NCBI GenBank assembly: GCA_913056125.1
Contig: CAJXNC010000009.1
Coordinates: 1-64,000, forward strand
Length of the DNA stretch: 64,000 nt
Source of the DNA: an uncultured Altererythrobacter sp.
GTDB lineage: Bacteria; Pseudomonadota; Alphaproteobacteria; Sphingomonadales; Sphingomonadaceae
Direction of reading: 5' to 3'
Within the stretch, counting starts at the first letter, position 1; each line of letters starts with the position of its first letter. The position numbers and the translations under genes are program-made. The notes under the pieces are model-generated. The model was given only the letters and a program-made list of their open reading frames with translations, was not told the DNA's origin and searched no databases. Positions 45,437 through 47,778 of the stretch are shown one piece after another.

Positions 45437-45472
45437 TTGCATCAAGTATCCTTTTGGGATACACAAGATACA
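45437..45472 (+). promoter_or_regulatory. Promoter with palindromic operator for the HTH-NadE gene
   Basis: TTGCAT (45437-45442), 17-base spacer, TACACA (45460-45465), then ATG at 45472, seven bases later. The palindrome GTATCC-TTTTG-GGATAC (45446-45462) fills the spacer and touches the -10. GATACA recurs at 45458-45463 and 45467-45472. The layout suggests repression by a dimer and a transcript with no leader. The -10 has the same sequence as that of recA. Confidence 0.6.
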
Positions 45473-47778
45473 TGCATTTGGCAGGACAGAAATTGCGCGC
45501 CTGGCGCGAGGCGCAGGATCCTCCCCTCTCGGCGGAGGAGTTCGGCGCGCGCTTCGGTATCCCCAAACCGTGGCCCAGCCGCACCGTCTATGGCTGGGAG
45601 GCAAAAGGCAAGATCCCGCGTGCACCGGTGCAAAAGCGGCTTGCCGAACTCGGAATTTGCGACCCGGCGGACTGGCTGGAACCCGCACACAAGGGGGCCG
45701 AGGTTGGGCAGAAAGTGAGCAAGGAGACGCACAGCTTCTTCGACATGCACCGCCACGGCTATGTTCGTGTGGCGACGAGCACACCCGAAGTTCGCACCGC
45801 CGATATTGGCCATAATTGTAAGGCGATCGTGGACGAAGCTCGGCGCGCGCATGCAGCGCATGTCGACCTGCTCATCTATCCCGAGCTTTGCCTCTCCTCC
45901 TACATGCTCGACGATCTGGTCATGCAGTCGGCCTTCCTCGCCCGCGTCGAGCAGGCGGTGGGCGAAGTGGTCAAGGCGAGCCGTGACCTCTCGCCCGTCC
46001 TGCTGATCGGCGCGCCGCTGCTGGCCAACAACCAGCTCTACAATTGCGCGCTGGTGATTGCCGCGGGCAAGCTGCTCGGCGTCGTCCCCAAGTCCTACCT
46101 GCCCAATTACCGCGAGTTCTACGAGAAGCGATGGTTCGCCCATGGCCGCAATGTCATTGGCGAGACGATAAAGGTGGGTAGCCTCGAAGCGCCCTTCGGA
46201 AGCGACCTCGTATTCGCCTCGACGCAGAACCGCGACTTCAAGCTGCATGTCGAGATCTGCGAGGACATGTGGTCCCCCGCCCCGCCCTCGATAGACGGCG
46301 TGCTGGCAGGCGCGACAATCTGCGCCAACCTCTCCGCCTCCAACATCGTCATCGGCAAGGCGGATGAGCGACACCTGCTGGTGCGTTCTTCCTCCAGCCG
46401 CCTCGCCTGCGCCTATGTCTATTCCGCCGCCGGCCATGGCGAAAGCACGACCGACCATGCCTGGGACGGACAGGGCATGATCTACGAGCTGGGTGAATTG
46501 CTGGCCGAAAGCGAACGCTTCCGCCGCCACCCCGAACTGTGCGTGGCCGATGTCGATTGCCAGCGCATCGTCGGCGACCGCATCCGCCTCAAGACCTTCG
46601 ACGATGCGGTCGAACATGCCGGGCGCCCGCAAAAGAGCTTCCGCACGATTGCGATGCCGCATTTCCCGCATCACGGCGAGATCGGCCTCACCCGCCCGAT
46701 TGCGCGCTTCCCCTTCGTGCCTGATCGCGAGCACAAGCTCGACGAGGATTGCTACGAGGCGTTCAACATCCAGGTCGACGGCCTCATGCGCCGGGTTGAG
46801 GCGACGAAACCCAAGAGCCTCGTCATCGGAATTTCGGGCGGTCTCGATTCAACGCATGCGCTGATCGTCGCGGCCAAGACTTGCGACCGGCTCGGCCTGC
46901 CGCGCGACACCATCCGCGCCTATACCATGCCCGGCTTCGGCACGACCGATCACACAAAATCCAATGCATGGGGGCTGATGGAGAAGTTCCACGTCCATGC
47001 GGAGGAAATCGATATCCGCCCGGCATCGACCAAGATGCTGCAGGATATCGGGCATGACTTCGCCGACGGGAAACCCGTCTATGACGTGACTTTCGAGAAC
47101 GTGCAGGCGGGCCTGCGCACGGATTACCTGTTCCGCCTTGCCGGGCAGCATAGTGGCTTCGTGATCGGAACGGGCGATTTGTCCGAACTGGCCTTGGGTT
47201 GGTGCACCTATGGCGTGGGCGACCAGATGAGCCATTACGCGGTCAATGCCGGCGTGCCCAAGACTTTGATCCAGCACCTGATCCGCTGGGCGATCCGTTC
47301 AGAACAGTTCACGCATGAGACCGATGCGATCCTGCAGGCCGTGCTCGATACAGAGATCACGCCCGAATTGGTGCCGGTGGGCGAAAACGGCGAAGTGCAG
47401 AGCACCGAAGCCAAGGTCGGCCCTTACGAGCTCAACGACTTCTTCCTGCACAACATCATGCGCTGGGGCCTGCCGCCTTCCAAGGTGGCCTTCATGGCCT
47501 GGCATGCCTGGCGCGATGTCGAGCGCGGCGACTGGCCGGCCTTCTTCCCCGAAAATGCGCGCAATGAGTACGACCTCCCGACCATCCGCAAGTGGCTGGA
47601 GAACTTCCTCGTCCGCTTCTTCCAGTTCAGCCAGTACAAGCGCAGCGCCATTCCCAACGGCCCCAAGGTTTCGAGCGGCGGCGCACTCTCCCCGCGCGGG
47701 GACTGGCGCGCACCGTCCGATGCCGTGGCCGATGTCTGGCTCGACGAACTCAGGGCAAACGTGCCCGAGAGGGAATGA
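45472..47778 (+). CDS. nadE: Glutamine-dependent NAD+ synthetase with an N-terminal HTH domain
   Basis: 768 residues from ATG 45472. Residues 1-81 are a Cro/XRE-like helix-turn-helix domain (LSAEEFGARFGIPKP, TVYGWEAKGKIPR). From residue 82 a complete two-domain NadE follows: a nitrilase-type glutaminase with E138 (YPELCLS), K207 (VPKSYLPN) and C263 (EICEDMW), then the synthetase with the PP-loop SGGLDS (455-460). It makes NAD+ from nicotinic acid adenine dinucleotide, with ammonia tunnelled from glutamine. A GTG at 45715 would give NadE alone (687 residues, the normal length), so two products or a separate regulator in related genomes are possible. No stop codon or frameshift lies between the parts. 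The ORF is open further upstream to 44539, but that part is antisense to the MFS gene. Confidence 0.85.
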   Translation: MHLAGQKLRAWREAQDPPLSAEEFGARFGIPKPWPSRTVYGWEAKGKIPRAPVQKRLAELGICDPADWLEPAHKGAEVGQKVSKETHSFFDMHRHGYVRVATSTPEVRTADIGHNCKAIVDEARRAHAAHVDLLIYPELCLSSYMLDDLVMQSAFLARVEQAVGEVVKASRDLSPVLLIGAPLLANNQLYNCALVIAAGKLLGVVPKSYLPNYREFYEKRWFAHGRNVIGETIKVGSLEAPFGSDLVFASTQNRDFKLHVEICEDMWSPAPPSIDGVLAGATICANLSASNIVIGKADERHLLVRSSSSRLACAYVYSAAGHGESTTDHAWDGQGMIYELGELLAESERFRRHPELCVADVDCQRIVGDRIRLKTFDDAVEHAGRPQKSFRTIAMPHFPHHGEIGLTRPIARFPFVPDREHKLDEDCYEAFNIQVDGLMRRVEATKPKSLVIGISGGLDSTHALIVAAKTCDRLGLPRDTIRAYTMPGFGTTDHTKSNAWGLMEKFHVHAEEIDIRPASTKMLQDIGHDFADGKPVYDVTFENVQAGLRTDYLFRLAGQHSGFVIGTGDLSELALGWCTYGVGDQMSHYAVNAGVPKTLIQHLIRWAIRSEQFTHETDAILQAVLDTEITPELVPVGENGEVQSTEAKVGPYELNDFFLHNIMRWGLPPSKVAFMAWHAWRDVERGDWPAFFPENARNEYDLPTIRKWLENFLVRFFQFSQYKRSAIPNGPKVSSGGALSPRGDWRAPSDAVADVWLDELRANVPERE

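Follow-up and report, generated by a model that had tools for sequence, protein, structure and literature searches.

Does an NAD+ synthetase that begins with a DNA-binding domain control its own gene? The question is raised by an open reading frame in a 64,000-nt stretch of DNA from an uncultured Altererythrobacter sp. (hereafter the window), for which a first-pass annotation, made from the letters alone, had claimed an uninterrupted frame encoding a Cro-like helix-turn-helix (HTH) in the first 81 residues, followed by a complete glutamine-dependent NAD+ synthetase (NadE).

A Cro/C1-type HTH in frame with a complete NadE

Translation of the window bore out the frame: positions 45472-47778 on the forward strand are a single stop-free frame of 768 aa. 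The enzyme part proved complete as well. Profile searches placed a CN_hydrolase domain at residues 99-366 and an NAD_synthase domain at 434-606, and the equivalog for long NadE, NF002730, matched residues 87-766 with 1036 bits (cut-off 473). The putative catalytic residues E138, K207 and C263 and the SGGLDS stretch (S455-S460) are intact and were invariant across 40 aligned fusions; in this family, the Glu-Lys-Cys triad belongs to the glutaminase and SGGLDS is the ATP-binding motif. By profile and motifs, residues 87-766 are assigned to the long type of glutamine-dependent NAD+ synthetase, and the closest solved structures were those of M. tuberculosis NadE, with 53-55% identity to the NadE part in structural alignments.

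The N-terminal part was recognised by its fold. None of the curated HTH profiles exceeded its cut-off for the 81-residue piece (HTH_31, 16 bits vs 27, E 0.016; carph-isopro, 17.6 bits vs 38). Modelled alone with 42 homologues in AlphaFold, the segment gave five helices with a pLDDT of 94.9, and structure comparison matched this model to the P22 c2 repressor (Z 7.6, rmsd 2.6 over 63 residues; a Z below 8 is middling) and to the 434 repressor (Z 6.7), while a Foldseek search with it returned nothing at E <= 0.001 (best E 0.14). The claimed Cro-like HTH is thus borne out by its fold, with the domain proper confined to approximately residues 1-69. The full-length model (pLDDT 74.6, pTM 0.67) was disordered over residues 70-84, a linker of low confidence that was also unconserved among the aligned fusions. 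Both models put Arg37 in second place within the recognition helix.

Table 1 Features of the HTH-NadE locus, given in window positions
Feature	Position	Strand	Basis
Promoter-like -35 element TTGCAT; TTG begins 9 nt before the operator	45437..45442	+	Sequence; putative promoter assignment
Candidate operator GTATCC-TTTTG-GGATAC, 17-bp palindrome	45446..45462	.	Perfect 6-bp arms; 23/23 fused vs 0/29 informative unfused loci
Extra half-site-like GATACA, runs into the start codon	45467..45472	+	Direct repeat of 45458-45463
Cro/C1-type HTH, fusion residues 1-69	45472..45678	+	AlphaFold pLDDT 94.9; phage-repressor fold match; conservation across 23 aligned fusions
Recognition helix, residues 36-44; Arg37 codon 45580-45582	45577..45603	+	Helix in both models; covariation of residue 37 with the outer base of the operator
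Linker, residues 70-84; contains in-frame GTG 45715-45717	45679..45723	+	pLDDT < 50; variable in sequence and length
Glutamine-dependent NAD+ synthetase (glutaminase and synthetase domains), stop codon included	45724..47778	+	NF002730, 1036 bits; M. tuberculosis NadE closest structures

Spread and age of the fusion

Such a frame would be trivial if a sequencing error had hidden a stop codon or frameshift between an HTH gene and nadE, or if that stop had been lost recently in this genome. The first-pass annotation had voiced the caution about a sequencing error and had proposed, as one option, that a short regulator gene lost its stop codon, and one relative (locus L076) does carry a NadE frame that is broken further downstream. 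The 81-residue segment was searched in relatives for a separate gene with its own stop, and 23 of the 99 genomes searched (own genome counted) proved to carry the HTH, in the NadE frame at all 23 loci, with a conserved ATG and no stop inside the HTH. A scan of public genomes yielded 75 titled loci, some of them from genomes already counted among the others, in genera that include Qipengyuania, Pontixanthobacter, Altererythrobacter, Erythrobacter, Tsuneonella, Croceibacterium, Parerythrobacter, Aurantiacibacter and Alteraurantiacibacter; NadE followed the HTH in frame in 74 of them, and the remaining one ends at a contig end. With the junction open in 23/23 fused relatives and 74/75 titled loci, an artefact is vanishingly improbable. 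Recent loss of a stop by a neighbouring regulator is not supported either, given that the fusion occurs in many genera and that three stand-alone homologues sit in prophage-like regions (see below). A separate HTH gene beside nadE was likewise rejected, as the search returned no HTH homologue within the 8-kb loci of 29 informative unfused genes (29 of 31; L078 of G009, with an N run over the start, and L108 of G032, at a contig edge, were left out of the unfused set, and G006, also at a contig edge, was left out of the loci). As judged from these comparisons, the HTH-NadE fusion is not explained by error or by read-through arising by chance, and it is old and wide.

At family level, 69 of 397 genomes had an HTH match, which lay in frames of 564-1125 aa in 60 cases, of 531-542 aa in seven and of 77 and 85 aa in two. 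The broken frame belongs to genome G024 (L076 and L199), where NadE is interrupted after 508 aa and its remainder lies in another frame on the same contig, reflecting either assembly error or decay. A NadE tree of 57 rows required seven changes of HTH state, four of them forced by the starred branches; counted on starred branches only, with the operator state entered equal to the HTH state, the four independent changes stay below significance (p 0.125). The same kind of upstream ORF end was found at ten fused and eight unfused loci, so that gain or loss of the HTH probably happened in place. In seven of the 29 unfused loci (L081, L083, L085, L087, L088, L089 and L097), nadE overlaps the end of the upstream ORF by 1-4 nt, and the overlapped ORF of L087 encodes PncC/CinA (TIGR00199, PF02464), an NAD-recycling enzyme. 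At such loci without the HTH, operon control may have replaced self-control.

A candidate operator inherited with the HTH

The palindrome GTATCC-N5-GGATAC, or a near variant, lies approximately 10 nt before the ATG at 23/23 fused loci, with its core ATCC-N5-GGAT beginning 23-27 nt before the ATG in all of them, while ATCC-N4..6-GGAT was found within 300 nt at none of 31 unfused loci (29 of them informative). For the window by itself, a shuffle test gave 6-bp arms spaced by 5 nt in 29 of 2000 cases, so the case for an operator rests on conservation. Among the 75 titled loci, the arms TATCC..GGATA are both exact in 63 and imperfect in 12, seven of which have a GTAGCC left arm and five another one-arm variant. 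The seven loci with GTAGCC instead of GTATCC on the left (L133, L134, L136, L138, L142, L149 and L162) come from Qipengyuania and an Erythrobacteraceae MAG, and by sequence this is an asymmetric operator fixed in a single lineage. The additional GATACA half-site of the window showed no conservation at other fused loci.

The promoter layout was equally constant. Of 114 distinct NadE fusions, 105 have the TTG starting 9 or 10 nt upstream of the operator, and in 113 the distance from the operator's end to the ATG is 8-12 nt. When formulated as a rule (TTG, 8-10 nt, palindrome with at least 5/6 pairs, 8-13 nt, ATG), the layout was found in 109/114 NadE fusions, in 20/21 fusions to DAHP synthase (DAHPS; see below) and at 17 of the 16892 remaining ATGs in the loci retrieved. 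The right arm of the operator is located at the position of a -10 box, which suggests a nearly leaderless mRNA. The palindrome also lies approximately 60 nt before the likely ATG of a divergent gene (MFS-transporter-like by reading), an unlikely conserved target since upstream neighbours differ among fused loci.

A regulon of exact or one-mismatch full sites was rejected for the window's genome: the palindrome occurs there exactly once, with no one-mismatch copies (control pattern, 8), and two-mismatch sites number 60 more vs 100 for the control. Among 37 genomes of the same genus, the exact site was present in 16, in one copy each and always at the start of the fusion. These are 15 of the 16 genomes with an HTH match plus G032, where the exact site led to an HTH start that is cut by the contig edge and had been overlooked by the HTH search; the sixteenth HTH genome, G024, has TTATCC..GGATAA in place of the exact site. 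Exact sites also occurred in 3/24 order-level genomes, with G080 showing an equal control count.

Recognition-helix residue 37 and the outer operator base covary

After deduplication, 98 of the 114 NadE fusions carry Arg37 and 16 carry Gln37. All 98 Arg37 fusions have C as the right outer base, and 96 of the 98 have G on the left (A in the other two), while the outer pair is T..A in all 16 fusions with Gln37; Arg-G and Gln-A are classic amino acid/base pairings. Fifteen of the Gln37 rows come from one genus and the other is L076 of G024, with its broken NadE frame, nested among Arg37 rows on the NadE tree, so that the independent events number at least two, but few. Specific DNA binding by the Cro/C1-type HTH is predicted from this covariation.

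An alternative explanation is that the palindrome belongs to another regulator and that the HTH serves, for example, subunit assembly, the two co-occurring as one inherited block. The upstream region and the HTH are adjacent, so they could be gained or lost jointly, and the structure comparison list contained two enzymes, HppE and MPnS, whose solved structures have an HTH-like fold within the enzyme; we know of no DNA role for either. Against it, residue 37 covaries with the operator's outermost base, same-genus genomes that lack the HTH also lack the sites genome-wide, and the arrangement is repeated on DAHP synthase with a different operator. We consider this explanation quite improbable.

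The arrangement is repeated on DAHP synthase

In the 531-542-aa frames, class II DAHP synthase (TIGR01358, 696.6 bits; PF01474) is preceded in frame by a related HTH. In another genus of the family, 57 of 61 genomes searched contained this enzyme; with 30 of these 57 read in addition to the earlier ones, loci from 34 distinct genomes were available, 21 fused to the HTH and 13 unfused. The fusions have their own candidate operator, TTACCC-N5-GGGTAA, unlike that of NadE. TTACC-N7-GGTAA was present at 18/21 fused vs 0/13 unfused loci, the fused loci L250, L254 and L255 having one altered arm, and the strict six-base arms were perfect in 17/21. Genome scans covered 15 of the 21 fused genomes (the three with altered arms and three others were left out) and 12 of the 13 unfused ones: exact sites were found at the DAHPS promoter only in 15/15 of the former and in 0/12 of the latter. 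In five of these 15 genomes (G978, G620, G933, G966 and G975), two exact operators lie 35-36 nt apart before HTH-DAHP synthase, a spacing that suggests cooperative binding.

Proposed self-repression and its alternatives

We consider it highly probable that HTH-NadE represses its own gene, with its own promoter as the single target. Long-type NadE is oligomeric (an octamer in M. tuberculosis), and such an oligomer could supply pairs of HTH domains on flexible linkers that would grip the palindrome and exclude RNA polymerase from the promoter; as the enzyme accumulates, nadE transcription would fall, and the nadE promoter would be the only target. The first-pass suggestion that NadE may control its own promoter was strengthened on the comparative side, by a palindrome that accompanies the HTH in inheritance, has no second copy in the genome and covaries with the recognition helix; all of this evidence is comparative. 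A putative DNA-binding domain fused to an enzyme, together with a predicted site in the enzyme's own promoter, would place HTH-NadE among autogenously regulated enzymes of the kind of NadR, PutA and M.SsoII.

The first-pass annotation had also proposed that the enzyme may read its own NAD or glutamine state, in which case the operator would be bound in one ligand state only (NAD+, NaAD, ATP or glutamine), as in NadR. NadE has the relevant ligand sites, as known from its family, and NadR, which joins an HTH to NAD enzymes, responds to NAD and ATP (PMC12421817). Against this, the linker is disordered and unconserved, and DAHP synthase, with other ligands, has the same design. If anything, the disordered linker and the repetition on an unrelated enzyme speak for simple autorepression set by how much enzyme is present; allosteric sensing we regard as possible though unlikely.

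A further possibility is that translation also initiates internally at the old NadE start, yielding free NadE, with the full-length protein as a minor regulatory species; this is compatible with self-repression. The in-frame GTG at 45715, pointed out in the first-pass annotation, was confirmed in the window, and in linkers that otherwise vary, a Met near the native NadE start was found in 81 of 104 (ten of the 114 NadE fusions had no anchor, hence n = 104). However, 23/104 linkers lack this Met, 5/104 contain neither ATG, GTG nor TTG, and a Met that is kept may be a relic, which makes two products rather doubtful.

Comparison with known systems

Several known proteins share parts of this design. 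NadR of Enterobacterales, a transcriptional repressor, combines an N-terminal HTH with NMN adenylyltransferase and ribosylnicotinamide kinase, and it represses nadB, nadA, pnuC and pncB in response to NAD, ATP and c-di-GMP (PMC12421817). Like HTH-NadE, it is an NAD-pathway enzyme with an N-terminal HTH, but its enzyme domains are different (profile search of the fusion found CN_hydrolase and NAD_synthase only, and neither of the two NadR enzyme domains) and it controls several genes instead of one predicted promoter. In the methyltransferases M.SsoII and M.Ecl18kI, approximately 70 N-terminal residues, modelled on the 434 repressor and followed by a flexible linker, regulate transcription in the protein's own system via an inverted repeat (PMC3978073); the 434-like domain, linker and site resemble those of HTH-NadE, although these are restriction-modification proteins that bind DNA by trade and HTH-NadE is a metabolic enzyme. 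Trifunctional PutA, also a metabolic enzyme with an N-terminal DNA-binding domain, is an autogenous repressor (PMC5293562), but its domain is a ribbon-helix-helix, the enzyme is catabolic and it controls the put regulon. Proteobacterial control of NAD genes is furthermore known from NrtR and from NadQ, the NAD regulator described for alphaproteobacteria, and the NadQ regulon takes in nadE in Rhodobacterales and Caulobacterales; unlike HTH-NadE, these are separate regulators with no enzyme fusion, and the NadQ motif is ttATRCTCannntGAGYATaa (PMC5343134). The phage Cro/C1 repressors (P22 c2, 434) are alike in fold, size and palindromic operator, whereas the HTH here is fused to a housekeeping enzyme and has one operator in the window's promoter.

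Our literature search, with subscription papers and preprints outside its scope, found no description of HTH-NadE or HTH-DAHP synthase, and the regulator-enzyme fusions in the literature searched did not include either enzyme. As the whole circuit, from regulator and enzyme to operator and promoter, is contained in a single unit with one predicted target, control by amount is cleanly testable in it, and the coupled changes in recognition helix and operator constitute a natural data set on the DNA specificity of Cro-type proteins. The HTH-enzyme unit can also serve as a compact template for enzymes that limit themselves.

Stand-alone relatives and a possible portable unit

Three stand-alone HTH homologues, L240, L241 and L335 (73, 75 and 78 aa), were found in prophage-like regions, where they occupy the position of Cro, divergent from XRE genes and with primase-like ORFs downstream; PHROGs matches around L240 and L335 comprised primase and repressor. 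L240 and L335 share the TTG-palindrome-ATG layout with 5/6 paired arms, and L241 is without it. Searches of phages and viral contigs with the window HTH gave no significant match and no confirmed viral contig, and one stand-alone homologue gave weak matches (E 0.04-0.08). As no close viral match was found, we lean only moderately towards an origin by capture of a phage-type cro unit that brought promoter, operator and HTH jointly and is related to the one on DAHP synthase. That DAHP synthase shows the same arrangement hints at how such genes evolve, with a phage-type switch being captured to control a housekeeping gene. In its most general form, with the balance tipping just slightly in its favour, this reading predicts that Sphingomonadales possess a portable unit for self-limitation, in which the promoter, the operator and a cro-like coding start derive from a phage-type switch and precede unrelated biosynthetic enzymes, namely NadE, class II DAHP synthase and perhaps, in a distant alphaproteobacterium, ArgB. 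Each enzyme would be a single-target self-repressor with a private operator, and HTH specificity and operator would drift together, so that several private pairs could coexist among related genomes.

The ArgB case is a lead only. In a distant alphaproteobacterial genome, the single 80%-complete G763, an open frame (L356, 1221-2411, minus strand) encodes what is perhaps an HTH-ArgB fusion, with a carph-isopro-like HTH (E 9e-7) followed by N-acetylglutamate kinase (TIGR00761); its upstream palindrome, ATAATATAC-N7-GTATATTAT, was matched by 130/1000 shuffles and is not significant. Six weak HTH matches at order and class level were set aside, four read as LexA/cI-type repressors (L351-L353, L357) and two as other HTH frames (L354, L355). 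Genome G202 contains a 609-aa frame (L336, 1160-2986, plus strand) in which an HTH is followed by an N6_N4_Mtase DNA methylase domain.
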